64,000 nucleotides of DNA from Klenkia sp. PcliD-1-E (GTDB taxonomy: Bacteria > Actinomycetota > Actinomycetes > Mycobacteriales > Geodermatophilaceae), in assembly GCF_024124375.1 (NCBI RefSeq), contig NZ_JAMXRZ010000002.1:1-64000 (forward strand). Direction: 5' to 3'. The notes under the pieces were generated by a model. That model did not search any database, was not told where the DNA came from, and saw only the letters and a program-made list of their open reading frames with translations. Below are positions 12,121-25,261 of the stretch, piece after piece (within the stretch, counting starts at the first letter, position 1; every line of letters starts with the position of its first letter). The translations under genes and the position numbers were made by a program.

Positions 12121-12233
12121 GGTGGTGCCGCCCCGTCGTTCCGCCATCCTGCACTCGTGCCACAACGGTACTGGTGCGTGTCGGCACGACCCCGCACGCC
12201 ACGGCGAGCAACAGGACGAAGGGAAGCCCGGGA

Positions 12234-13160
12234 ATGCCCGATGCACACTCCACCGAGCCGCACGCTGCCGGGCACGACCAAGAAGTCGACGATGTGGCGA
12301 GCCCCAGCCCACGACGTGAGGATGTCGACCTGATTTCGGCCATCGGCGCGCGGGATGTCGGGGCGACCGTCAGCGGGGGAATCACCCCGCCTGATCACCC
12401 TGATGACCCCGACCTGCCCGAGAACCGCGGCCGCCGACCGGCCGAGCAGCCACCGGGGGTGCAATCCCTGCGCACTCGCGAGCCCCTGACCCGGGACCGG
12501 ATCATCACCGCCGCGATCGACTACGTCGACACCCACGGGCTGCCCGCCTTGACCATGCGCCGACTGGGTCAACGCCTCGGCGTGGAGGCCATGGCCTTAT
12601 ACCGCTACGTCCCCAGCCGCGACGACCTGCTCGACGCGGTCGTAGCTGCCGTGGTCGATGAGCTGTACAGCGACGACGACGTGCACTTCACCCCCCAGCA
12701 CGGCTGGCAGGACTACCTGCAACGCCTGGCCCACGGCGTCCGCCGCATTGCCCTGGCCCACCCTGCGCTGTTCCCCCTGGTGGCCACCCGCCCCTCGAAA
12801 GCCCCGTGGGTGCGCCCCCCGCTGCGCAGCCTGAAGTGGGTGGAATCCTTCCTCACAGCGCTGCTCACCCATGGCTTCACCCGAGAGCAGGCCGTCATCG
12901 CCTACCGGGCCTACACCAGCTTCCTGCTCGGTCACCTGCTGCTGGAGGTCGCCCAGCGCGGCGTGGCCATCAACGCAATCGACGACCCTGATGGGGCCCC
13001 GGGCACCGACGTCGCCGAGCTGGGCGGCGACTATCCCGTCCTGGTCGACCTGCAGGATCTGCTCTCCCTGGACGAGACCATCAGCGAGTTCGAGGAATCG
13101 CTGGAGAACCTCATCGCCAGGTTGGGAGACATGCTGACCACCCACTCGTCCCATCTGTGA
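12234..13160 (+). CDS. TetR-family regulator with TetR-type C-terminal domain, adjacent to Asp23 cluster 1
   Basis: 308 residues. An acidic, Pro-rich ~75-residue N-terminal extension precedes the HTH (LTMRRLGQRLGVEAMALYRYVPSRDDLL), which is of the TetR/AcrR type with the MALYRYV recognition helix. The C-terminal domain (WQDYLQRLAHGVRRIALAHPALFPLVATR) matches the drug-binding TetR_C class. It precedes the first Asp23 cluster by 145 bases on the same strand. The equivalent position before the second cluster holds a broken copy (19467-19997), so this protein may now control both clusters. A later start near the HTH cannot be excluded. Confidence 0.85.
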   Translation: MPDAHSTEPHAAGHDQEVDDVASPSPRREDVDLISAIGARDVGATVSGGITPPDHPDDPDLPENRGRRPAEQPPGVQSLRTREPLTRDRIITAAIDYVDTHGLPALTMRRLGQRLGVEAMALYRYVPSRDDLLDAVVAAVVDELYSDDDVHFTPQHGWQDYLQRLAHGVRRIALAHPALFPLVATRPSKAPWVRPPLRSLKWVESFLTALLTHGFTREQAVIAYRAYTSFLLGHLLLEVAQRGVAINAIDDPDGAPGTDVAELGGDYPVLVDLQDLLSLDETISEFEESLENLIARLGDMLTTHSSHL

Positions 13161-13305: not shown

Positions 13306-13758
13306 GTGAGCAGCCCCACCACCGACACCACCCCGGCCAAGCCGTCCACCGAGCTGGTCAGCTCGCAGGGCAAAACCACCATCGCCGACACCGTGGTCTC
13401 CAAGATCGCCGGGATGGCTGCTCGTGAGGTCAACGGGGTCTACCGCCTCGGCGGCGGGACGGCGCGAGCCTTCGGGGCAATTCGGGAGCGCATCCCCGGC
13501 TCCGGCGGCCCCAACGTCAGCCAGGGCGTGTCGGTCGAGGTTGGGGAGACCCAGGCAGCCGTCGACATCGACGTCGTCGTCGAGTACGGGGTCGCCATCG
13601 CCGACCTGGCCGCCGGCATCCGACGCAACGTCATCACCAGCCTGCAGCGGATGACCGGCCTGGAGGTCGTCGAGGTCAACATCAGCGTGGATGACATCCA
13701 CCTGCCCACCGACGACGCGTCCGCCGAGGACGAGCAGCAGCCCTCCCGCGTCCAGTGA
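13306..13758 (+). CDS. Asp23/Gls24 family envelope stress protein (cluster 1)
   Basis: 150 residues. After a polar leader comes the Asp23/Gls24 domain: GKTTIADTVVSKIAGMAAREVNGV, the Gly-rich GGGTARAF, VSVEVGETQAAVDIDVVVEYG and the closing LEVVEVNISVDDIH. In Gram-positive bacteria Asp23 coats the inner face of the membrane, held by AmaP, and is induced by alkaline and envelope stress. An AmaP-like gene lies downstream in the same run. The stop overlaps the next start (GTGA). It is about 90% identical by eye to the cluster 2 copy at 20145-20612. Confidence 0.92.
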   Translation: MSSPTTDTTPAKPSTELVSSQGKTTIADTVVSKIAGMAAREVNGVYRLGGGTARAFGAIRERIPGSGGPNVSQGVSVEVGETQAAVDIDVVVEYGVAIADLAAGIRRNVITSLQRMTGLEVVEVNISVDDIHLPTDDASAEDEQQPSRVQ

Positions 13759-14135
13759 CCACCCCGGACCGCACGCCCACCGCACCCGGGCCCACCGCGC
13801 GAGCCCTGCCGGCGGTGCCCGCCGCACCCGCCGCGGTGGTCGAGGGCGTGGATGTCGATGCCCTCTCCGAGGCGGTGCGTGCGTGTCCGGCGGTCACCGA
13901 CCTCTCGCCGGGCCCGTTCGGCGCAGTCGCGACCTACCTGCCCGGACGCCGGGTCACCGGGATCGCCGTGCGCACCCCGGATGCCGGGGGCGCAGTGCAG
14001 GTCGAGGTGCACGTCGTCGCGGCCTACGGGCCGACCATGGCCACCGTCGCCGAGCAGGTGCACGCCGTCATCGCCGCTCAGGTACCCGCTGCCACCGCCA
14101 CGGTGGCGATCGACGACATCGCCACCCCGTCATGA
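13755..14135 (+). CDS. Short Asp23-like protein (cluster 1)
   Basis: 126 residues, starting at a GTG that overlaps the previous stop by four bases. A Pro/Ala-rich leader precedes VVEGVDVDALSEAVRACPAV, GAVATYLPGRRVTGIAV, VQVEVHVVAAYGPTMATVAEQV and AATATVAIDDIA. This is the same beta-helix plan as Asp23 in shorter form. It is probably a partner subunit. The cluster 2 counterpart (20609-21045) carries a frameshift, so this may be the only intact copy. Confidence 0.75.
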   Translation: MTTPDRTPTAPGPTARALPAVPAAPAAVVEGVDVDALSEAVRACPAVTDLSPGPFGAVATYLPGRRVTGIAVRTPDAGGAVQVEVHVVAAYGPTMATVAEQVHAVIAAQVPAATATVAIDDIATPS

Positions 14136-14371
14136 GCACGCAGGCCGGTCCCAGTGCCGCCGAGTTCCGGTCCTTCGTCCGCGCCGCCCACCCCGATGTC
14201 GGTGGCGACCCGGACACCTTCGCCGCGGGTCTGGCTGCCCGCGGCCGCGGCCCACGCCCGACCACTGGCCAGCGCATCACCGTCGTGCCTGGCCGGTCCC
14301 TGACCAGCAGGCTGCGCCGTCTGCGCCGGGCGCTACGACCGCGCCCTCCGCGCTCCACCCCGCTGCGCTGA
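14132..14371 (+). CDS. HPD-motif mini-protein (J-domain-like fragment), cluster 1
   Basis: 79 residues, ATG overlapping the previous stop (ATGA). The N-terminal half, AEFRSFVRAAHPDVGGDP followed by an amphipathic helix, resembles the helix II-HPD-helix III part of a J domain, including the invariant HPD and the common GGDP. The C-terminal half is very basic (RSLTSRLRRLRRALR). The cluster 2 copy (21042-21287) preserves HPDVGGDP and the basic tail, although the rest differs, which supports a real gene. Whether it recruits DnaK is unknown; a complete J domain is about 70 residues and helices I and IV are not evident. Confidence 0.7.
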   Translation: MSTQAGPSAAEFRSFVRAAHPDVGGDPDTFAAGLAARGRGPRPTTGQRITVVPGRSLTSRLRRLRRALRPRPPRSTPLR

Positions 14372-14423: not shown

Positions 14424-14609
14424 ATGCGAACCAGCACCCTCGGCCTGATCGTGGGCCTCGTCCTGGGCCTGGCCGGCGCCTTCGGCGGCTTCGGGGCCTT
14501 CGTCCTCGTGGCTGTCCTGGGCGCCATCGGCTTCGCGGTCGGCAGCGTCCTCGACGGCCAGCTCGACGTCACCTCCTACCTGCCCGGCGCCGACCGCACG
14601 CGACGATGA
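14424..14609 (+). CDS. DUF2273-like small membrane protein (cluster 1)
   Basis: 61 residues. One long hydrophobic hairpin (LGLIVGLVLGLAGAFGGFGA, FVLVAVLGAIGFAVGSVL) is followed by a polar tail with YLPGADRTRR. Small DUF2273 integral membrane proteins accompany Asp23 genes in Firmicutes and Actinobacteria. The tail is identical in the cluster 2 copy at 21338. Its stop overlaps the next Asp23 start by four bases. Confidence 0.8.
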   Translation: MRTSTLGLIVGLVLGLAGAFGGFGAFVLVAVLGAIGFAVGSVLDGQLDVTSYLPGADRTRR

Positions 14610-15010
14610 CCACCGCCCACCCCACCGACCAGCCGGCCGACCAGCGGGCGCAGTCCGCCGCCGAGGGCCGGGGCGCGCTCGAGATCGCCGACCGGGTGAT
14701 CGAAAAGATCGCCGCCCACGCCGCCGCCGGCGTCCCGCACGCCACCGGATCCCCCCGCCGGGTCCTGGGCCTGACCGTCAGCGAGGACCCGGGAACGCCC
14801 CAGGTCACGGCCAAGGTGCACGGCGACGTGGCGACGGTGTTCATCGACCTCGCCGTGACCTGGCCGGCGCCGGTCACCGAGGTCACCCGCGCTGTCCGCG
14901 CCGCCGTCATCGACCGGCTTACCACCCTGGTCGGCATCGGCACCGCCCAGGTCGACATCGAGGTGTCGGCGCTGCCGGCCGCCCGACGCGAGCAGCGCAG
15001 GGTCGCCTGA
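14606..15010 (+). CDS. Asp23/Gls24 family protein, second paralogue (cluster 1)
   Basis: 134 residues from an ATG overlapping the previous stop. Asp23-type features: ALEIADRVIEKIAAHAAAGV, RRVLGLTV, VTAKVHGDVATVFIDLAVTW and VTEVTRAVRAAVIDRLTTLVGI. It differs from the first Asp23 in the cluster and in this family is likely to be the membrane-proximal or co-assembling subunit. The next gene starts within its stop codon (TGATG), so translation is coupled. Confidence 0.85.
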   Translation: MTTAHPTDQPADQRAQSAAEGRGALEIADRVIEKIAAHAAAGVPHATGSPRRVLGLTVSEDPGTPQVTAKVHGDVATVFIDLAVTWPAPVTEVTRAVRAAVIDRLTTLVGIGTAQVDIEVSALPAARREQRRVA

Positions 15011-15537
15011 TGCGCACCCTGGACCGCGTCCTGGCCGTCGTCCTGGCCATCGTCGGGTTCGCCGCCGGGATCGCTTTGACTGTGGAGATCGCCCACCGCG
15101 CCCTCGGCGGCAGCGGCCACCTACTGATTCCATACGAACCGGTGGCCGCTTTCGTCCGCAGCAACGCCTGGTCCTCCCCCGCTGTGCTGATCATCGGCGC
15201 CGTGCTGGCCCTGTTGGGGCTGGTGCTGCTGGTCGCCGAGCTCAAACCGCGCCGGCCCGGCCTGCTGGTGCTGGAGTCCGGGCACCCCGACGTGACCGCA
15301 GCCCTGCCCCGTGCCTCTATCGCCCGCGTCGTCGAGTACGCCACCAGCGACCTGCCCGGCATCGATCACGTGCGAGCCAAAGCGCGCGGCAACAAGATCA
15401 CCCTCACCGCCCACACGCCCCTGGCCCGGGCCGGGGATTTGCCCGCCCAGGTGGAGTCCGCCGCCGCCCGCGCCCTGGCCGACCTGCGGCTGCGCCGCAC
15501 CCCGACCGTGACCGTCCGCATGCAGGAAGGTGCCTGA
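15010..15537 (+). CDS. DUF6286-type membrane protein of Asp23 cluster 1
   Basis: 175 residues with two membrane helices (VLAVVLAIVGFAAGIALTVEI and AVLIIGAVLALLGLVLLVAEL). A conserved cytoplasmic-side domain follows (RRPGLLVLESGHPDVTAALP, IARVVEYATSDLPGIDHVRAKARG), ending in beta strands (TVTVRMQEG). This family regularly sits between Asp23 and AmaP genes in actinobacteria. It probably anchors or organises the Asp23 layer. Starts and stops overlap both neighbours. Confidence 0.82.
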   Translation: MRTLDRVLAVVLAIVGFAAGIALTVEIAHRALGGSGHLLIPYEPVAAFVRSNAWSSPAVLIIGAVLALLGLVLLVAELKPRRPGLLVLESGHPDVTAALPRASIARVVEYATSDLPGIDHVRAKARGNKITLTAHTPLARAGDLPAQVESAAARALADLRLRRTPTVTVRMQEGA

Positions 15538-16157
15538 TGACCACCGTCCAGGCCGGCCCGGCCACCTTGGCGCCGGAGACCCGCTCACCCGCTGCGGTGC
15601 GCACCAACCGGGCCCTGCTCGGCCTGGGCGGGCTGCTCCTGCTCGCCACCGGGCTGGCCACCCTCGCCCTGGGCACTGGACTGCTCAACCCGCCGGCGCA
15701 AGAGGAACCTGTGCTCAACGAGGTCGCCGACGGCTGGCTGGACAGCCACAGCTGGATCTGGTGGCCCATCGCCGGCGCCGGCGTGCTCATCGCCGCGATC
15801 TGCCTGTGGTGGCTGCTGGCCCAGGCCCGGTCCAACCGGGTGTCCACCTTGCGCGTCGGAGAGCGCACCGACGCCGGCCGCACCACCATCGCCGCCTCGG
15901 CCCTCACCGACGCCGTGGAGACCGACGTCGAGTCCATCCGCGGCGTCGCCCGGGCACACGCCCACCTGGCCGGCACCCCCACCGCCCCCACCATGACCCT
16001 CACCGTCGCCCTCGACGGTCGAGTCGACGTGGCGCAGGTGCAAGCGCAGGTCATCGGCGAGGCGATCGAGCACGCCCGCAGCGCACTGGCTGTGGACACC
16101 TTGCCCACCCGTCTGGAATTCACCGTGCCGCGCACGGTGGCCCGCGACATCCGCTGA
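15537..16157 (+). CDS. amaP: AmaP-like alkaline-shock membrane anchor (cluster 1)
   Basis: 206 residues. Two membrane helices (ALLGLGGLLLLATGLATLAL and WWPIAGAGVLIAAICLWWLL) flank a short external loop containing NPPAQEEPVLN. The cytoplasmic C-terminal half (TLRVGERTDAGRTTIAASAL, TMTLTVALDGRVDVAQV) has the Asp23-interacting AmaP pattern. The expected role is to tether Asp23 proteins to the membrane. The start overlaps the previous stop (TGATGA). The cluster 2 homologue is at 22439-23059. Confidence 0.85.
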   Translation: MTTVQAGPATLAPETRSPAAVRTNRALLGLGGLLLLATGLATLALGTGLLNPPAQEEPVLNEVADGWLDSHSWIWWPIAGAGVLIAAICLWWLLAQARSNRVSTLRVGERTDAGRTTIAASALTDAVETDVESIRGVARAHAHLAGTPTAPTMTLTVALDGRVDVAQVQAQVIGEAIEHARSALAVDTLPTRLEFTVPRTVARDIR

Positions 16158-16658: not shown

Positions 16659-16708
16659 GTGACATCTGATCTGTGGTGCCGAGAGGCGCCGCTGGAAGGA
16701 TGTTGATC

Positions 16709-17002
16709 GTGCCCAAGCCCTACCCCGAGGAGTTCCGGGACGACGTGGTGAACGTTGCTCGCAGCCGTGAGCCCGGGACTCATCTGAAGCAGATCGCGGC
16801 GGACTTCGGGATCAGCGAGTCGTGTCTGACGAACTGGCTGAAGGTCGCTGACGTTGAAGACGGCGTCAAGCCGGGCGCCACGGCGGCGGAGAACACCGAG
16901 TTGCGTGATGCCCGCCGGCGGATCCGGTTGCTGGAGCAGGAGAACGAGGTGTTGCGCCGGGCGGCGGCCTACTTGTCGCAGGCAAATCTGCCGGGAAAAT
17001 GA
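16709..17002 (+). CDS. IS3-family transposase OrfA
   Basis: 97 residues from a GTG at 16709 with GGAAGGA upstream. HTH_Tnp_1 type: YPEEFRDDVVNVARSR, QIAADFGISESCLTNWLKVAD, then a leucine-zipper-like helix (RIRLLEQENEVLRRAAAYL). It binds the element ends. OrfB begins inside its stop at GGGAAAATGA, a sequence that would suit the programmed frameshift that makes OrfAB in IS3 elements. Confidence 0.88.
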   Translation: MPKPYPEEFRDDVVNVARSREPGTHLKQIAADFGISESCLTNWLKVADVEDGVKPGATAAENTELRDARRRIRLLEQENEVLRRAAAYLSQANLPGK

Positions 17003-17610
17003 TCTACCCGCTCGTCCGTGAGCTGGCCGCTGCCGGTGCCCGTGTGCGGGTGCCGGTCGCGGTGACGTGCCGGGTCTTGAAGATCGCCCGCCAGCCCTAC
17101 TACCGGTGGCTGGCAGACCCGGTCACCGCCGCCGAGCTCGAGGCGGCCTACCGGGCCAACGCCCTGCACGACGCCCACCTCGACGACCCAGAGTTCGGCT
17201 ACCGCTACCTCGCCGTCGAGGCCGCCGGCGCCGGGGAGCCGATGGCTGAGCGCACCGCGTGGGCGCTGTGCTCGGCGATGAGCTGGTGGTCTGCCTTCGG
17301 CAAGCCCCGCCGCGGCAAGGCCGGCCGGCCCGGGCCGCCGGTGCATGACGACCGGGTCCAGCGCGTGTTCACCGCGCCGGCACCGAACCGGTTGTGGCTG
17401 ACCGACATCACCGAGCACCCCACCGCCGAGGGCAAGCTCTACCTCTGCGCGATCAAGGACGTGCACTCCAACCGGATCGTCGGCTACGCGATGGACGCCC
17501 GGATGCAGTCCCGGCTGGCCCTCGCAGCGCTGGAGTCCGCCGTCGCGCGACGGGCCACCGGCGGGAACGACGTCGCCGGCTGCATCGTCCACTCCGACAG
17601 GGGGTCGCAA

Positions 17611-19109
17611 GGCGGATTCCACCGGTCGTCGCAACACCTCGATCGTGGAGGTGTGTGTCGTGGCGACAGCCGACTGGAGCAGGAAGACCAGCGAGGTGCC
17701 CGAGGGTGTGCGTCGGCAGTGGCGGGCTGATCGGGCGCTCCGCCCGGCGATGCGCTCGCCGGGTCGGCCGGAGCCCTCGCGGGCGGTGCAGCGTCAGTTC
17801 TGGCGGGTCATCGCCACCGGGGTCACCTCGGTGGATGCGTCGCTGGAGGTGGGCGTGTCCTGGCCGGTCGGTTGCAGGTGGTTTCGCCACGCTGGCGGCA
17901 TGGCCCCGATCTCGCTGGCCGAGCCCACGGGCCGGTACCTGTCGTTCGCTGAACGGGAGGAGATCGCGATCCTGCGGGCTACCGGCGCCGGGGTGCGCAC
18001 GATCGCTCGCGCCGTCCAGCGGGACCCCTCGACGATCTCCCGCGAGCTGCGCCGTAACGCCGCCACCCGGGGCGGCCGACCGGAGTACCGGGCCACGGTG
18101 GCGCAGTGGAAGGCGCAGCAGGCTGCCAAGCGCCCCAAGGTCGCCAAGCTCGTGACCAACGTGCGGCTGCGCCATTTCGTGCAGGAGCGGCTGGATGGCA
18201 CGGTGCGGCGCGCCGATGGCACCGCCGTCACCGGGCCGGTGACGGCTGAGTTCAAGGGGCGCACGATGAAGCCCCACCGCGCCGACCGGCGCTGGGCGAC
18301 GGCTTGGAGTCCGCAGCAGATCAGCAACCGGCTGCGGCTGGACTTCCCCGACGATGAGTCCATGCGGATCAGCCACGAGGCGATCTACCAGGCGCTGTTC
18401 ATCGAAGGCCGCGGCGCCCTCAAGCGCGAACTCGTCGCGTGCTTGCGCACCGGTCGAGCTCTTCGCGAGCCACGGGCCCGCACGCGCAACAAGCCCCACG
18501 GGCACGTCACCGATGAGGTGGTGTTGAGCCAGCGACCTGCCGAGGCCGCCGATCGGGCCGTCCCGGGCCACTGGGAGGGCGACTTGATCATCGGCACCGG
18601 ACGCTCGGCGATTGGCACGCTCGTGGAGCGCTCCAGCCGCACCACGCTGCTGGTGCATCTCCCGCGCCTGAAGGGCTGGGGTGAGCAGCCGGTAGTGAAG
18701 AACGGGCCCTCCCTGGCCGGCTACGGGGCGTTGGCGATGAACGCGGCCCTGGCCTCCTCGATGGCGCGGTTGCCCGTGCAGCTGCGCCAGACCCTGACCT
18801 GGGATCGGGGCAAGGAGCTCTCCGGGCACGCCCAGTTGACCCTTGACACCGGCACCAAGGTGTTCTTCGCCGACCCCCACTCACCCTGGCAGCGACCCAG
18901 CAACGAGAACACCAACGGGCTGCTGCGTCAGTACTTCCCCAAGGGCACCGACCTGTCCCGGTGGACCGCTGAGGACCTCGAGGCCGTCGCGCTTGCGATC
19001 AACGACAGGCCCCGCAAGACACTGGGCTGGAAGACCCCCGCCGAGGTCTTCTCCGAGCAGCTACGGTCCCTCCAACAGCCCGGTGTTGCATCGACCGGTT
19101 GAACCCGCC
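17611..19109 (+). mobile_element. IS30-family insertion sequence nested in IS3
   Basis: 1499 bp. Imperfect terminal inverted repeats of about 28 bp: the left end starts GGCGGATTCCACCGGTCG, and the complement of the right end starts GGCGGGTTCAACCGGTCG. It is flanked by a 3-bp direct repeat CAA (17608-17610 and 19110-19112), and the uninterrupted IS3 copy has a single CAA there. One transposase gene fills it. The clean duplication indicates a simple transposition later than the IS3 insertion. Confidence 0.93.
17660..19102 (+). CDS. IS30-family transposase
   Basis: 480 residues from the GTG at 17660 (another GTG at 17645 is in frame). It has an N-terminal HTH (LSFAEREEIAILRATGAGVRTIARAVQRDPSTISRELRRN in outline), then the RNase-H-fold DDE core: GHWEGDLIIG (first Asp), LTWDRGKELSGH (second Asp) and SNENTNGLLRQYFPKGTD (Glu). 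C-terminal INDRPRKTLGWKTPAEVF is the IS30 signature. All catalytic residues are present, so the element may be active. Confidence 0.95.
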   Translation: MATADWSRKTSEVPEGVRRQWRADRALRPAMRSPGRPEPSRAVQRQFWRVIATGVTSVDASLEVGVSWPVGCRWFRHAGGMAPISLAEPTGRYLSFAEREEIAILRATGAGVRTIARAVQRDPSTISRELRRNAATRGGRPEYRATVAQWKAQQAAKRPKVAKLVTNVRLRHFVQERLDGTVRRADGTAVTGPVTAEFKGRTMKPHRADRRWATAWSPQQISNRLRLDFPDDESMRISHEAIYQALFIEGRGALKRELVACLRTGRALREPRARTRNKPHGHVTDEVVLSQRPAEAADRAVPGHWEGDLIIGTGRSAIGTLVERSSRTTLLVHLPRLKGWGEQPVVKNGPSLAGYGALAMNAALASSMARLPVQLRQTLTWDRGKELSGHAQLTLDTGTKVFFADPHSPWQRPSNENTNGLLRQYFPKGTDLSRWTAEDLEAVALAINDRPRKTLGWKTPAEVFSEQLRSLQQPGVASTG

Positions 19110-19466: not shown

Positions 19467-19997
19467 CGTTGCAGAAGCCGTCGTCGACGAGCTGTAAACC
19501 GACGACGACGTCGACCTCGAGCCACAGCGCGGCTGGCAGGACTACCTGCAGCGACTGGCCCATGGGGTGCGACGCATCGCGCTGGCCCACCCCGCCTTGT
19601 TCCCGTTGGTGGCCACCCGCCCCCCGGCCGCACCATGGGTCAGACCCCCGCTACGCAGCCTCGGGTGGGTGGAGTCGCTGCTGTCGGCGTTGCTGGCCCA
19701 TGGATTCAGCCCTGAGCAGGCCGTCGTGGTCTACCGGGCCTACCGGGCCTACACCAGCTTCCTGCTGGGCCACCTGCTGCCGGAAGTCACCCAGCGCGGG
19801 GTGGCAAGCAACACCATCGACGACCCCGACGGCAGCACCGATGACGGCCGGGCCGACATCGGGACGGGCTTTCCGATGCTGGTCGACCTGCAGGACCTGC
19901 TGTCCCTGGACGAGACAGGGACCGAGTTCGGGAATCATTGAAGAACCTCATCACCCGGCTCTCCACCGTGGTCTCCGCCCGGACCACCCACCTGTAG
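19467..19997 (+). pseudogene. TetR-family regulator remnant of Asp23 cluster 2
   Basis: Matches the C-terminal two-thirds of the intact regulator at 12234-13160, starting at AVVDEL. Lesions: the HTH half is absent beyond the IS3 end; a TAA replaces the Tyr codon after VVDEL (about 19495); a 9-base tandem duplication gives VYRAYRAYTS; and a frameshift near 19932 separates TEFGNH from KNLITRL. The terminal TTHL and stop are still recognisable. The gene is dead, consistent with an IS-associated deletion removing its promoter and HTH. Confidence 0.88.
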
Positions 19998-20073: not shown

Positions 20074-20144
20074 CAGGGGGTGCGGCCGTCCGCGTCGCAG
20101 CCGTGAGCTCAGCGCTCGCCGGCGCCCCCGACCCAGGAGCTGTG

Positions 20145-20612
20145 ATGAGCACCCCCACCGACCCCACCACCACGACCGGCAAGGGTGCGAGCAAGCCCTC
20201 CACCGAGTTGGTCTCCACCCAGGGGAAGACCACCATCGCCGACACCGTCGTCTCCAAGATCGCCGGAATGGCCGCTCGCGAAGTCAATGGCGTTCACCGT
20301 CTCGGTGGCGGCACCGCCCGCGCATTCGGTGCTATCCGCGAACGCATCCCGGGCTCCGGTGGCGCCAACGTCAGCCAGGGTGTCTCGGTGGAGGTCGGGG
20401 AGACCCAGGCCGCCATCGACATCGATGTCGTCGTGGAGTACGGCGTGGCCATCGCCGACCTCGCCGCCGGGATCCGGCGCAACGTCATCTCCAACCTGCA
20501 GCAGATGACCGGCTTGGAGGTCGTGGAGGTCAACATCGCCGTCGACGACATCCACCTGCCCACCGACGACGCCGCAACGGAGGACGAGCAGCAGCCCTCC
20601 CGAGTCCAGTGA
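20145..20612 (+). CDS. Asp23/Gls24 family envelope stress protein (cluster 2)
   Basis: 155 residues from an ATG with CAGGAG upstream. The sequence is nearly the same as the cluster 1 protein at 13306-13758 from KPSTELVS to the C-terminus (QQPSRVQ), differing mainly in the Thr-rich leader. The Asp23 core GKTTIADTVVSKIAGMAA and IDIDVVVEYGVAIADLAAGI is intact. It opens the second copy of the operon, directly downstream of the dead TetR gene. Confidence 0.92.
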   Translation: MSTPTDPTTTTGKGASKPSTELVSTQGKTTIADTVVSKIAGMAAREVNGVHRLGGGTARAFGAIRERIPGSGGANVSQGVSVEVGETQAAIDIDVVVEYGVAIADLAAGIRRNVISNLQQMTGLEVVEVNIAVDDIHLPTDDAATEDEQQPSRVQ

Positions 20613-21045
20613 CCGGCCCGGGCCGCACGCACCCCCCAGCCCCGACTGCCCGGGCGCTGCCCTCCCAACCTGCAGGACCGGGTCCAGTCGTGGAGGGCGT
20701 CGACATCGAAGCCTTGCCGCAGCGGTGCGTGCGTGTCCGGCCGTGGCTGACCTATCCCCTGGCTCGTTGGGCACGGTCGCGACCTACCTGCCCGGCCGGC
20801 GGGTGCCCGGAATCGCGGTACGGCACGCGTCAGGGAATGGCTCCACAACACAGAGCTTGCAGGTCGACGTTCATGTCGTGGCCGTATACGGCCCGACGAT
20901 GGCGACCGTGGCCACCCAGGTGCACACCGTGATCGCAGCCCATGCTCCCGGTGCAGTGGTCGCCGTCGCCATCGACGACATCGTTGTAGGCGAGGATGCC
21001 GCCGCGCTGCAGGTCGATACGACTAGCCCCGGGACAACCGCATGA
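20609..21045 (+). pseudogene. Short Asp23-like gene with frameshift (cluster 2)
   Basis: It starts like cluster 1 (GTG overlapping the previous stop; VVEGVDIEALP), but one base is missing near 20717 relative to the cluster 1 sequence. The frame therefore leaves the family; the correct continuation VRACPAVADLSPGSLGTVATYLPGRR is read one frame over and runs to the TGA at 21043-21045. The second half is well conserved, with an extra loop (GNGSTTQS). Either a recent inactivating deletion or a sequencing error; the downstream ATGA overlap is preserved. Confidence 0.8.
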
Positions 21046-21287
21046 GCGCTACCGGCGGTGGCCAGCGCGCTGAGTTCCGGGCCTTTGTGCGGGCCCACCA
21101 CCCAGACGTCGGCGGGGATCCGGCCATCTTCCAGGCCGGGCTGGCCGACCGTGGTCGCAGCCACCACGGTCGCCACCGCCCGCCGGTCACTGTGGTGCCC
21201 AGCAGGTCACTGCCGGCTCGGCTACGCCGACTGCACCGGCGCCTGCGCCGGGGCAGGCGCCCCACGCGCAGCGTCCCGCTGCGCTGA
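21042..21287 (+). CDS. HPD-motif mini-protein (J-domain-like fragment), cluster 2
   Basis: 81 residues, ATG overlapping the previous stop. RAEFRAFVRAHHPDVGGDP followed by a short helix, then VTVVPSRSLPARLRRLHRRLRR. It keeps the HPD tripeptide, GGDP and the basic tail of the cluster 1 protein while the connecting residues differ, which argues for selection on those two parts. No other domain is visible. Confidence 0.7.
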   Translation: MSATGGGQRAEFRAFVRAHHPDVGGDPAIFQAGLADRGRSHHGRHRPPVTVVPSRSLPARLRRLHRRLRRGRRPTRSVPLR

Positions 21288-21337
21288 GCTGCCCTTTCCC
21301 TACCTGCCTACCCACGTTCCCCTCCTTGGAGATCATC

Positions 21338-21523
21338 ATGCGTCCCAGCACTCTAGGCCTGGTTGTGGGCCTCATCCTCGGCGTGGCCGGCGCCTTCGGG
21401 GGGTTCGGGGCTTTCGTCCTGGTCGCCGTCCTCGGCGCCATCGGATTCATCGTCGGCAAGGCCGTGGAAGGCCAGATCGATGTGTCCAGCTACCTGCCCG
21501 GCGCCGACCGCACCCGGCGATGA
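21338..21523 (+). CDS. DUF2273-like small membrane protein (cluster 2)
   Basis: 61 residues from the ATG at 21338, preceded by TTGGAG. Hydrophobic hairpin LGLVVGLILGVAGAFGGFGA and FVLVAVLGAIGFIVGKAV, then VSSYLPGADRTRR. It is a close homologue of the cluster 1 protein, and the ATGA overlap with the next Asp23 gene is retained. Confidence 0.8.
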   Translation: MRPSTLGLVVGLILGVAGAFGGFGAFVLVAVLGAIGFIVGKAVEGQIDVSSYLPGADRTRR

Positions 21524-21912
21524 GCCTCACCGCATCGGCTGACCCCCGGCTGGACACCCCCCCGGAGGACCGCGGCCGACTGGATATCAAGGACCGGGTG
21601 ATCGTGAAGATCGCCGCCCACGCCGCCACCGGCATTGAACACGCCACCGGTTCCCCCCACCGGGTACTGGGGGTCGCCATCGGTGATGAGCTCGGCGCAC
21701 CTGCGGTCACCGCCCAGGTGCACGGGGACATCGCCACCATCACCATCGACCTGGGCGTGGCGTGGCCGGCCTCGATCATCGACGTCACCCGCGCGGTCCG
21801 CGCAGCCGTCATCGACCGGCTCACCACCCTGGCCGACATCCACACCGCCCAGGTCGACATCGCCGTCACCGCTATGCCCGCCCCCCGCAGCCGCCGCGGG
21901 AGGGTTGCCTGA
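21520..21912 (+). CDS. Asp23/Gls24 family protein, second paralogue (cluster 2)
   Basis: 130 residues. Asp23-type core: LDIKDRVIVKIAAHAATGI, HRVLGVAIGDE, VTAQVHGDIATITIDLGVAW, VTRAVRAAVIDRLTTLADI. It is the homologue of the cluster 1 gene at 14606-15010, with a shorter leader. The following gene begins within its stop codon (TGATG). Confidence 0.85.
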   Translation: MSLTASADPRLDTPPEDRGRLDIKDRVIVKIAAHAATGIEHATGSPHRVLGVAIGDELGAPAVTAQVHGDIATITIDLGVAWPASIIDVTRAVRAAVIDRLTTLADIHTAQVDIAVTAMPAPRSRRGRVA

Positions 21913-22442
21913 TGCGACTATTCGACCGCATTGCGGCCGTCGTGCTCGCCGCCCTCGGGTTCGCCGCCGGCGCCGTGGTGGTCGTGGAGATCGCCCACCG
22001 CGCCTTCGGTGGCACCGGGCACCTGGTGGTGCCCTACGAGCCCGCGGCCGGTTTCGTCCGGGGCCACGCGTGGTCCTCGGCCCCGGTCATCGTCATCGGC
22101 GTCGGCCTGGCCGTCGTCGGACTAGTCGTGCTAATCGCCGAACTCACGCCGCGGCGTCCCGGGCTGCTGGTCCTGGAATCCGGGCATCCGGACGTCACCG
22201 CGGCACTCCCCCGGTCCTCGGTGGCCCGCGTCGTCGAGCACGCAGCCGGCGATGTGCCCGGCGTGGAATCGGTGCGGGCCGCCGCTCGCGGACGCCGGGT
22301 CACCCTCACCGCTCGCACCCTGATCACCGACCCCGGTGACCTGTCCACCCAGCTCGACTCGGTGGCCACCCAGGCACTGGCCGGGCTGCACCTACGGCGC
22401 ACCCCCCCGGTAACCGTCCGCATCCAGGGAGGCCCCTCGTGA
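21912..22442 (+). CDS. DUF6286-type membrane protein of Asp23 cluster 2
   Basis: 176 residues; two membrane helices (AAVVLAALGFAAGAVVVVEI and VIVIGVGLAVVGLVVLIAEL) around a short loop with PYEPAAGFVRG. The conserved RRPGLLVLESGHPDVTAALP domain and C-terminal VTVRIQGG strand follow. Colinear with the cluster 1 homologue at 15010. Confidence 0.82.
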   Translation: MRLFDRIAAVVLAALGFAAGAVVVVEIAHRAFGGTGHLVVPYEPAAGFVRGHAWSSAPVIVIGVGLAVVGLVVLIAELTPRRPGLLVLESGHPDVTAALPRSSVARVVEHAAGDVPGVESVRAAARGRRVTLTARTLITDPGDLSTQLDSVATQALAGLHLRRTPPVTVRIQGGPS

Positions 22443-23059
22443 CTACCGTCCAAGCCGGACCGGCCACCCTGCCCACCGAGACCCGGTCACCGGGCGCAGT
22501 ACGAACCAACCGCCTCCTGCTCGTGCTGGCAGGTGTGCTCCTGCTGACCGCTGGGCTGCTCACCCTCGCGCTGGGCACCGGACTGCTCAACCCCCCAGCC
22601 CAGGACCAGGCGGTGCTCAATCACGTCGCCGACACCTGGCTGACCTCCCACAGCTGGGTGTGGTGGCCCATCGCCGCCGGCGGGGTGCTCCTGATGGTGC
22701 TGTGCGCGTGGTGGCTGCTGGCCCAAGCCCGGTCCAACCGGGTGTCCACGCTGCGCATCGGGGAACGCACCGGGCAGGGCCGCACCACCATCGCCGCGTC
22801 CGCACTCACCGACGCCATCGAGGCCGACGTCGAGACCTACCGCGGCGTGACCCGGGCCCGAGCCCATCTCAGCGGCACCATCAGCGCACCCACCCTTACC
22901 CTCACCGTCGCCCTGGACGGACGGGTCGATGTCGACCAGGTGCAGCAACAGGTCAGCGAGCAGGCGCTCACCCACGCTCGAACCGCCCTCGGGGTTGCCT
23001 CGTTGCCCACCCGCTTGGAGCTCACCGTGCCCCGTACCACCGCCCGCGACGTGCGCTGA
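22439..23059 (+). CDS. amaP: AmaP-like alkaline-shock membrane anchor (cluster 2)
   Basis: 206 residues, the same length as the cluster 1 homologue. Two membrane helices (LLLVLAGVLLLTAGLLTLAL and WWPIAAGGVLLMVLCAWWLL) and the cytoplasmic domain TLRIGERTGQGRTTIAASAL, LTLTVALDGRVDVDQV. It begins at a GTG overlapping the previous stop. Expected to anchor Asp23-type proteins. Confidence 0.85.
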   Translation: MTTVQAGPATLPTETRSPGAVRTNRLLLVLAGVLLLTAGLLTLALGTGLLNPPAQDQAVLNHVADTWLTSHSWVWWPIAAGGVLLMVLCAWWLLAQARSNRVSTLRIGERTGQGRTTIAASALTDAIEADVETYRGVTRARAHLSGTISAPTLTLTVALDGRVDVDQVQQQVSEQALTHARTALGVASLPTRLELTVPRTTARDVR

Positions 23060-23794: not shown

Positions 23795-25261
23795 TCAGCC
23801 CCGTCGAGGGGTGGGGAGGTCTCGGCGGCTCCGTTTGGCTGTGTACATGGCCCGGTCGGCGCTGCTGAGCAACGTGTCCGGTGAGGAGTCGGTGCCGGAG
23901 ATCGCTACCCCCACGCTGATGCCGATGGTGTGCGTGCCGTGGGTGGACAGCACCGGGGCGGTGAATGCACCGCGAACGCGGTCGGCGATGGTGTCGGCCT
24001 GTTGCCAGCTGCGCATCCCCGGGCACAGCAGGACGAACTCATCGCCACCGAGTCGGGCCACGGTGTCACCCGGGCGTACGGCCTGGCGCAGGTAGCCGGC
24101 GGCGGTGATGAGCACCTCATCGCCCACGGCGTGGCCGTGGTGGTCGTTGACGGCTTTGAAGCGGTCCAGGTCGCAGTAGAGAACGGCGACCTGGGTGCCC
24201 TGCCGGGTTGCGCTGTGCAGCGCGTGGGTGAGCCGGTCCATCAGCAGGGTCCGGTTGGGCAGTCCGGTCAAGCCGTCGTGCAGAGCGGCGGTGCGCAGCT
24301 GCTGCTCCATCTTTCGCTGGCTGGTGACATCAGCCATCGCCACCACCGCGCCCAGCACCTCTCCGTCATCGCCCATGACGCGCGACGCCGAGCAGGTGAC
24401 CAGCCGTGCCTGTGCCCCGTGGGCACGGATGACGATCTCGGCGTCGAGCACCCGGCCTTCCTCGAACGCGCGCAGCAGAGGAACCTGGCCAGCCGACAGC
24501 GGGGTGACCCCATCGGAGGCGAACAGATCATAGGCAGTGGGGATGTCCGCGGGGGCGACCCGGGCGGCTTCACCCGCGGGCTCGTCGTGCCCGTGCCATT
24601 GGCGGCTGACCCTGTTGAAGTAGGTGACCTGCCCATCGGCGTCGGCGGCGACCACCCCTACCGGGAGCGCCTCCAGCAGAGCTCGGGAGAACGCCTGGGT
24701 GCGAGACAGCCGCGCATAGGCCTCGCCGAAGAAGGACTGGGCCTGGTCGGCGCTGCGATCGGTGCGCCGTCGCTGCAACAGCACCACGACCAGCGCGGCG
24801 AGGTCCTCCAGAGCAGCGATGTGGGCACCGGTCAGGTCACCGGGGGTGTCATCGTGTACGCACAGGGTCCCCACGATGACGCCGGCAACCTGCAGCGGTG
24901 TGCTGGCATACAGCCGCACGTGGCCACGGCGACCATCGACCCACGGGTTACCGGCGAACGCCGGGACCGCCGAGGCGTCCCCCACTGCCACGGTGACCCG
25001 TGAGCGCGCCGCGGTCTGACACAGGGACTCATGTCGAGGGGACCGCGACCACCCGGAGCCGGTGCGGGCGAGCTGGTACTGCCAGGAACCGTCCAGCAGG
25101 TTGATCACTGCCTGCCCGGCGCCGGTGAGCATGACAGCCAGCCGCAGCACTCCGTCCAGCTCGGGGTCGATGGGCAGGTCGGCCAGATCGAGGTCCGTCA
25201 TCGTTCGACCTTGCGTTGCAGGAGCGGGCTGCGCCAGGGGCATGTCGTGGGTAACGGGCAC
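23795..25261 (-). CDS. GAF-PAS-GGDEF diguanylate cyclase
   Basis: 488 residues. An N-terminal GAF domain (VMLTGAGQAVINLLDG, CQTAARSRVTVAVGDASA, VRLYASTPLQVAGVIVGTLC) is followed by a PAS domain (LLEALPVGVVAADADGQVTY). The GGDEF domain has DGLTGLPNRTLL, YCDLDRFKAVND and RLGGDEF. The active site is complete; there is no EAL domain, so the predicted activity is cyclic-di-GMP synthesis under GAF/PAS control. It is soluble. Alternative start: the ATG at 25201 (MTDLDLADL). Its 3' end faces the Asp23 cluster 2 end. Confidence 0.92.
   Translation of the reverse strand: MPVTHDMPLAQPAPATQGRTMTDLDLADLPIDPELDGVLRLAVMLTGAGQAVINLLDGSWQYQLARTGSGWSRSPRHESLCQTAARSRVTVAVGDASAVPAFAGNPWVDGRRGHVRLYASTPLQVAGVIVGTLCVHDDTPGDLTGAHIAALEDLAALVVVLLQRRRTDRSADQAQSFFGEAYARLSRTQAFSRALLEALPVGVVAADADGQVTYFNRVSRQWHGHDEPAGEAARVAPADIPTAYDLFASDGVTPLSAGQVPLLRAFEEGRVLDAEIVIRAHGAQARLVTCSASRVMGDDGEVLGAVVAMADVTSQRKMEQQLRTAALHDGLTGLPNRTLLMDRLTHALHSATRQGTQVAVLYCDLDRFKAVNDHHGHAVGDEVLITAAGYLRQAVRPGDTVARLGGDEFVLLCPGMRSWQQADTIADRVRGAFTAPVLSTHGTHTIGISVGVAISGTDSSPDTLLSSADRAMYTAKRSRRDLPTPRRG

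Follow-up and report, generated by a model that had tools for sequence, protein, structure and literature searches.

A short HPD protein of actinobacterial Asp23 clusters read as a J domain reduced to its DnaK-contacting part

The first 64,000 nucleotides of contig NZ_JAMXRZ010000002.1 of Klenkia sp. PcliD-1-E (assembly GCF_024124375.1), hereafter the window, contain two clusters of genes for Asp23 family proteins, and inside each cluster lies a gene for a very small protein with a His-Pro-Asp (HPD) motif, the DnaK-stimulating motif of J domains. The question raised by this locus is whether such a protein, here termed mini-J, is related to J domains at all and, if so, what it might be doing among Asp23 genes. 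From its sequence we read mini-J as a J domain shortened to the finger that contacts DnaK (helix II, the HPD loop and helix III), followed by a basic tail. The resemblance of a protein encoded among Asp23 genes to the chaperone-contacting half of a J domain suggests that the Asp23 scaffold has a link of its own to the DnaK folding machine.

A conserved HPD core in a gene under constraint

Both mini-J genes of the window are complete open reading frames, and each start codon overlaps the stop codon of an upstream asp23-like gene (asp23B) as ATGA:

14132..14371, plus strand: mini-J copy 1, 79 residues, with the putative helix II-HPD-helix III core and a basic tail
14132..14135, plus strand: ATGA overlap of the asp23B stop and the mini-J start, read from the sequence
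21042..21287, plus strand: mini-J copy 2, 81 residues

The initial annotation credited the two copies with a size of about 80 residues, a common AEFR-x-FVRA-x-HPDVGGDP motif and a basic tail, and it described the rest of a J domain as not evident. The lengths agree, the exact motif can be read in both translations, and an Arg-rich C-terminal tail closes each protein. The copies are 60% identical across residues 1-57 (BLASTP E 5e-19) and 62% identical over the whole alignment. Nonsynonymous over synonymous divergence (dN/dS) between them, calculated for this single pair with the NG86 method, is 0.35/0.80 overall and 0.19/1.00 in the core. Mini-J is hence a gene under constraint, which is stronger near HPD. 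The ATGA overlap, for its part, suggests coupled translation, and it seems likely that mini-J is translationally coupled to the upstream asp23B.

Homologues were gathered with a two-row profile in 112 genomes of the same family, 36 of which matched at E<=0.01. Among the places fetched, those with an HPD-GG core were retained and low-scoring ones lacking it (L041, L043, L046, L048) were left out; listed but unfetched family places and L012-L019 of the window's own genome were likewise kept out of the homologue counts. A 27-row alignment made of mini rows only, and the profile built on it (both A2), is invariant at R13, H20, P21, D22, G24, G25, D26, P27 and F30 and at one C-terminal Arg. Across the class, 90 of 394 genomes had a match to A2 at E<=1e-3, part of these matches being ordinary J proteins aligned mostly across positions 4-45. 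The resulting mini set comprises 67 loci of the window's class with 65 distinct cores, and it leaves out a family of short HPD proteins described below (f65, within L198-L210).

The conservation of HPD in wider homologues, on which the J-domain proposal had been made to depend, is complete in this set, with H, P and D retained in 65/65 distinct cores from the 67 loci, and it is for this reason not a matter of chance. The same holds for an Arg seven residues before the His (H-7; 65/65) and for Phe, Leu or Tyr at H+10 (65/65), while Arg or Lys occupies H-11 in 63/65; the commonest residue has a mean frequency of 0.59 across the 41 positions compared. Core rows were registered on the GG of the loop, so that the two glycines reach 65/65 by construction, and HPD was not demanded, save for the P as a tie-breaker. 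Because HPD is part of the search profile, relatives that lack the motif would be scored down and might be overlooked; a survey of the mini-J slot in 30 Asp23 loci, reported below, acts as a check on this.

Scanning genome contigs with the single protein returned nine loci, four of them mini-J (L001-L004); the other five (L005-L009) are J-domain-like HPD stretches from cyanobacteria and Bacillota and were handled as J proteins of other phyla. The best match of the sequence profile in the PDB is NDUEG6 (E 0.0066, suggestive only), followed by TIM14 (E 1.2), two MTSase chains (E 2.3) and SV40 large T (E 4.5). PHROGs gave no match to either window copy, and a plasmid collection gave none to copy 2.

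Probable descent from J domains, linked through longer relatives

The J-domain-like identity put forward in the initial annotation finds its main support in fuller J proteins that are encoded in the Asp23 clusters of other classes. When A2 was run on 296 genomes of the phylum, its matches in other classes included proteins that are encoded in Asp23 clusters and carry helix I. Eight of the best 11 non-mini places lie in Asp23 clusters, and the remaining three encode other J proteins, whose fetched flanks of 1.5 kb on either side hold no Asp23 gene. Twelve such full forms are available in total (two more via a profile named A4), and they have helix I (LGV), helix II, HPD and helix III. The L-G-V-type end of helix I stands about 20-25 residues before HPD in 12/12 full forms and has a counterpart in 1/67 mini loci (L026), where the match falls at or before the likely start. 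Helix I is thus missing from mini-J. PF00226, the DnaJ family, matches all eight full forms scanned (E 4e-8 to 1e-5), four scoring above the gathering threshold, one equal to it and three below. Within their clusters, full forms occur as the first gene before DUF2273, between Asp23B and DUF2273, after AmaP or in divergent orientation.

Profile comparison with hhalign connects the series at each step, giving 98.6% for mini against full forms (20 column shuffles reach at most 4.9%), 98.0% for full forms against canonical DnaJ, and 92.5% for mini against a mixed J set (both reversals and 10 shuffles reach at most 0.08%). Of 31 DnaJ loci, L112, L117 and L119 yielded no J domain under a first pattern, the hhalign set using a slightly different one. 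Three rows of the mixed set (L005, L008, L009) had come in through their resemblance to the query, and the full forms were themselves chosen by likeness to the mini profile or to A4. The homology of mini-J to J domains rests on these intermediates, since its direct match to canonical DnaJ is weak. On profile evidence, mini-J derives from J domains, yet it is no J-domain protein by the criteria tested, because helix I is absent and the Pfam cut-off is not reached. We infer that the full form is ancestral to the mini form. The basic tail is recognized above shuffles in 7/10 full forms; a profile of the tail only had also been considered as proof of orthology and proved weaker than hoped. A further family of J-domain proteins (f63; L163, L168, L170, L172, L174) has a conserved GRPSR-type stretch after helix III and no Asp23 gene in the 1.5 kb flanks fetched.

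One AlphaFold run for each window copy, on 6-row alignments, predicts helices at residues 9-19, 27-38 and 55-68 of copy 1 and at 6-19, 27-42 and 56-70 of copy 2. In both models HPD (20-22) links the first two helices, and residues 11-40 are the best-modelled part (block means 70-83). The third predicted helix (about 55-70) falls in the basic tail, with no alignment to helix IV. VIA-align found no match to the model of copy 2. The models agree with a J finger, short of proving it.

Mini-J within Asp23 clusters

The surroundings of the two window genes are as follows, all on the plus strand:

13306..13758: Asp23 family protein A, cluster 1 (PF03780, E 4.6e-30)
13755..14135: divergent Asp23-like protein B, cluster 1 (PF03780, E 1e-5, below cut-off)
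14424..14609: DUF2273-like small membrane protein, cluster 1 (below cut-off)
14606..15010: Asp23 family protein C, cluster 1
15010..15537: DUF6286 / AmaP-like membrane protein, cluster 1 (Pfam, NCBIfam)
15537..16157: AmaP-like membrane anchor, cluster 1 (NF033218, above cut-off)
20103..20612: Asp23 family protein A, cluster 2 (listed frame, start approximate)
20725..21045: Asp23-like protein B, cluster 2 (start uncertain)
21326..21523: DUF2273-like protein, cluster 2
21571..21870: PF03780 match of Asp23 protein C, cluster 2
21912..22442: DUF6286-like protein, cluster 2 (start uncertain)
22439..23059: AmaP-like protein, cluster 2

The co-occurrence with Asp23 and AmaP that the initial annotation asked about extends to the whole mini set. 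An Asp23 gene lies within the fetched stretch of 66/67 mini loci (65 by profile recount, then one after extension), and the remaining locus (L034/L178), on a 6 kb contig, has AmaP and DUF6286. The gene order Asp23, mini-J, DUF2273 is found in 62/67. Among the exceptions, L062 starts where its contig does and L070 lacks a visible DUF2273, whereas in L034-L036, as in L178-L180 (genera g6 and g8), mini-J sits outside the operon but no more than about 3.5 kb away, either downstream of AmaP or in divergent orientation to Asp23A. In the class search 30 loci were fetched, and all 29 of them apart from the window's own have Asp23-cluster genes beside mini-J; two loci, L085 and L088, entered via the Asp23 search and are not independent evidence of linkage. 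Seen from the other side, a search of 197 genomes of the class, that of the window among them, found 70 with Asp23, and in 19 of these mini-J adjoins Asp23-cluster genes (tables compared by eye).

The slot survey covered 30 Asp23 loci of the class, a non-random sample of the best Asp23 matches with at most one per genome. Five of them, the window's own among these, encode an HPD protein. In 24 just 16-158 nt separate the preceding Asp23 match from DUF2273, which leaves no room for such a gene, and in one a 355 nt gap holds no clear mini-J homologue. An HPD-less relative occupying the slot was looked for and none was seen in the 30 loci, the slot being empty instead in 24 of the 25 loci without a J protein. 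Asp23B is present in 5/5 surveyed loci with mini-J and in 11/25 without it. Mini-J is a component of the Asp23 cluster, though not of every such cluster, and it is dispensable for Asp23 function, given that most of the Asp23 loci surveyed do without it.

Some further observations concern short HPD stretches and the neighbourhood. The members of f65 (L198:3324-3563, L199, L200, L201, L203, L206, L209, L210) are short HPD proteins with a WRLLLARLHPDAGGDxELFLFA-like sequence and are possibly an independent half J domain; they have no Asp23 gene in the fetched stretch, and the notion that every short HPD protein belongs to an Asp23 cluster was rejected on their account. The DUF6286 proteins of both window clusters (15010-15537 and 21912-22442) also contain HPDV (SGHPDVTAALPR), and this HPD (SGHPDV) was set aside as unrelated, by eye and from context. 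The stretch between the clusters contains, at 16673-19102, two transposase units, one of HTH_Tnp_1 plus rve and the other an HTH_38 protein. A gene for a TetR-type regulator (12231-13157) precedes cluster 1. Ahead of cluster 2 stands a shortened stretch (19567-19938) whose TetR C-terminal match is weak (E 0.001, below cut-off), so that the duplicated block seems to have taken the regulator along. Cluster 2 is adjoined by a gene for a GAF-PAS-GGDEF protein (23795-25261, minus strand).

DnaK docking, its alternatives and known systems

The genome of the window encodes one DnaK and two DnaJ-family proteins. The likeliest function of mini-J, to which we assign a probability of roughly 0.55, is that of a dedicated DnaK-docking subunit of Asp23 assemblies. 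Mini-J would be a J domain cut down to the part that touches Hsp70, namely the basic face of helix II, the HPD loop and helix III. At the membrane, its basic tail would anchor it on Asp23/AmaP assemblies, and its finger would dock at the interface of the nucleotide-binding and substrate-binding domains of ATP-bound DnaK. DnaK would thereby be recruited and triggered at these assemblies, where it might remodel Asp23 polymers or load clients. Docking, attachment through the tail and remodelling are all proposed here.

Several published results bear on this scheme. DnaJ contacts DnaK through D35, K26, Y25, H33 and F47 (PMC13012618), and the J-domain interface consists of helices II and III and the HPD loop (PMC7289447). 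In the numbering of the former source, position H-7 corresponds to K26, and the H+10 residue of mini-J falls on F47, so that the invariant or near-invariant mini positions map in the alignment on K26, H33, P34, D35 and F47. The basic helix II positions that contact Hsp70 (Arg at H-7, Arg/Lys at H-11) are kept. The accessible part of PMC13012618 does not name helix I within the DnaK interface, and an ERdj3 J fragment without helix I has comparable activity in a secretion assay (PMC5561034). On the scaffold side, the Asp23 protein of S. aureus assembles into filaments in vitro, its distribution in cells is compatible with filaments, AmaP anchors it, and its molecular function is called unclear (PMC6954212).

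A number of points weigh against this interpretation. Scans of Pfam and NCBIfam with E allowed to reach 10 found no match for either window copy, in keeping with the initial description of the rest of a J domain as not evident, and Pfam DnaJ matches 3/27 mini members weakly, the best at E 0.037. Compared with canonical DnaJ alone, mini-J reaches 6.3%, with the register correct and E 0.0017; once HPD is masked, its match to the mixed J set falls from 92.5% to 6.7%. The values of 92.5% and 98.6% are moreover raised by selection, because J rows and full forms were picked by likeness to the query, and the tail profile fails to beat shuffles in 3/10 full forms. Confidence in the models is moderate (mean predicted local distance difference test score 66.6 for copy 1 and 67.2 for copy 2; predicted template modelling score about 0.3), Foldseek against the PDB found no match to either, and a hairpin without helix I may be unstable alone. 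Mini-J is absent from 25/30 surveyed Asp23 loci, and f65, with no visible helix I, indicates that a half J is not bound to Asp23 everywhere. Finally, HPD is dispensable for the ERdj3 effect, a precedent that favours helix II and not HPD (PMC5561034).

Some of these points lend themselves to other explanations. The first is that mini-J is a truncated J relic that the Asp23 complex retains as a structural subunit, with HPD and the helix pair making contacts within the complex and DnaK unbound. The loss of helix I, part of the J folding core, the tight linkage to Asp23 and the partial conservation of the tail would all fit such a relic, which we nonetheless deem unlikely: conservation is highest at the positions in contact with DnaK (PMC13012618), and HPD would be expected to disappear once DnaK was no longer met, whereas the 30 loci surveyed contain no HPD-less homologue in the slot. 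Mini-J could also fill the J site of DnaK without triggering it, keeping DnaK or DnaJ off Asp23 assemblies. A simulated J domain without helices III-IV, built to stay bound, fails to stimulate DnaK (PMC13012618), and the mini form is likewise incomplete, but it keeps helix III and its hydrophobic position, in the region needed in those simulations, and the HPD required for triggering is invariant, so that a decoy is quite improbable. A basic peptide binding membrane or nucleic acid, its J-like stretch merely a dimerization hairpin, would account for the Arg-rich C-terminal half and its predicted helix; it leaves the invariant HPD and the longer J relatives in Asp23 clusters unexplained, and we give it very little credence. 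That HPD is coincidental and the protein unrelated to J domains, as the lack of family and fold matches and the weak direct DnaJ match might suggest, is scarcely credible when profile comparison through intermediates reaches 92-98% against at most 4.9% in shuffled controls and the mini-only A2 profile retrieves true J-domain proteins out of whole genomes.

Returning to the docking subunit, the strongest form of the proposal is that mini-J is a naturally occurring, functional half J domain some 35 residues long that, without helix I, couples DnaK to a polymer-forming scaffold, Asp23. We advance it tentatively, as a serious possibility that we would not yet favour. In simulations, deleting helices III-IV stops the push of DnaK (PMC13012618). 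The case bears on the minimum size of a J domain, in that the Hsp70-contacting finger is apparently retained, with HPD unchanged, in many genera of one class. A J-derived subunit in an Asp23 operon also makes for a testable proposal, the Hsp70-driven handling of Asp23 polymers; if the half-J coupling is true, Hsp70 would assemble or disassemble these polymers at the membrane. The action of auxilin and Hsc70 on clathrin offers an analogy for such handling. Among the open papers listed for these subjects, as covered by titles and the openings of abstracts and with subscription journals mostly uncovered, we found no report linking Asp23 (or Gls24) to a J domain or DnaJ.

The window clusters resemble the Asp23/AmaP envelope-stress operon of S. 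aureus in uniting Asp23, DUF2273-like and AmaP-like anchor genes, and differ from it by the addition of divergent Asp23B and DUF6286 genes; the available portion of PMC6954212 mentions no J-derived subunit for that operon. Rki of phage RB43 is comparable as a dedicated J protein that engages DnaK and has a poorly conserved helix IV, yet it has 237 residues, an N-terminal J-domain of about 75 aa and, in the part of the source available, no Asp23 link (PMC3486835). With the PF00226 family mini-J shares the basic residues of helix II, the HPD loop and the hydrophobic residue of helix III, and the series from mini to operonic full J to canonical DnaJ joins the two. It departs from that family in having no helix I, no helix IV that can be seen and no Pfam match in the window proteins, and in continuing with a short basic tail only. 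The full J proteins of Asp23 clusters in other classes share its setting, its HPD-x-GG loop and, in most of those tested, a recognizable tail, but they retain helix I and match PF00226. J-like proteins of the Pam16 type have lost HPD. HPD-less type IV J proteins are also on record (PMC5561034), and HPD-less J-like proteins are, like mini-J, J-derived by partial loss. They provide the mirror case, keeping the fold and losing HPD, whereas mini-J keeps HPD and goes without helix I.
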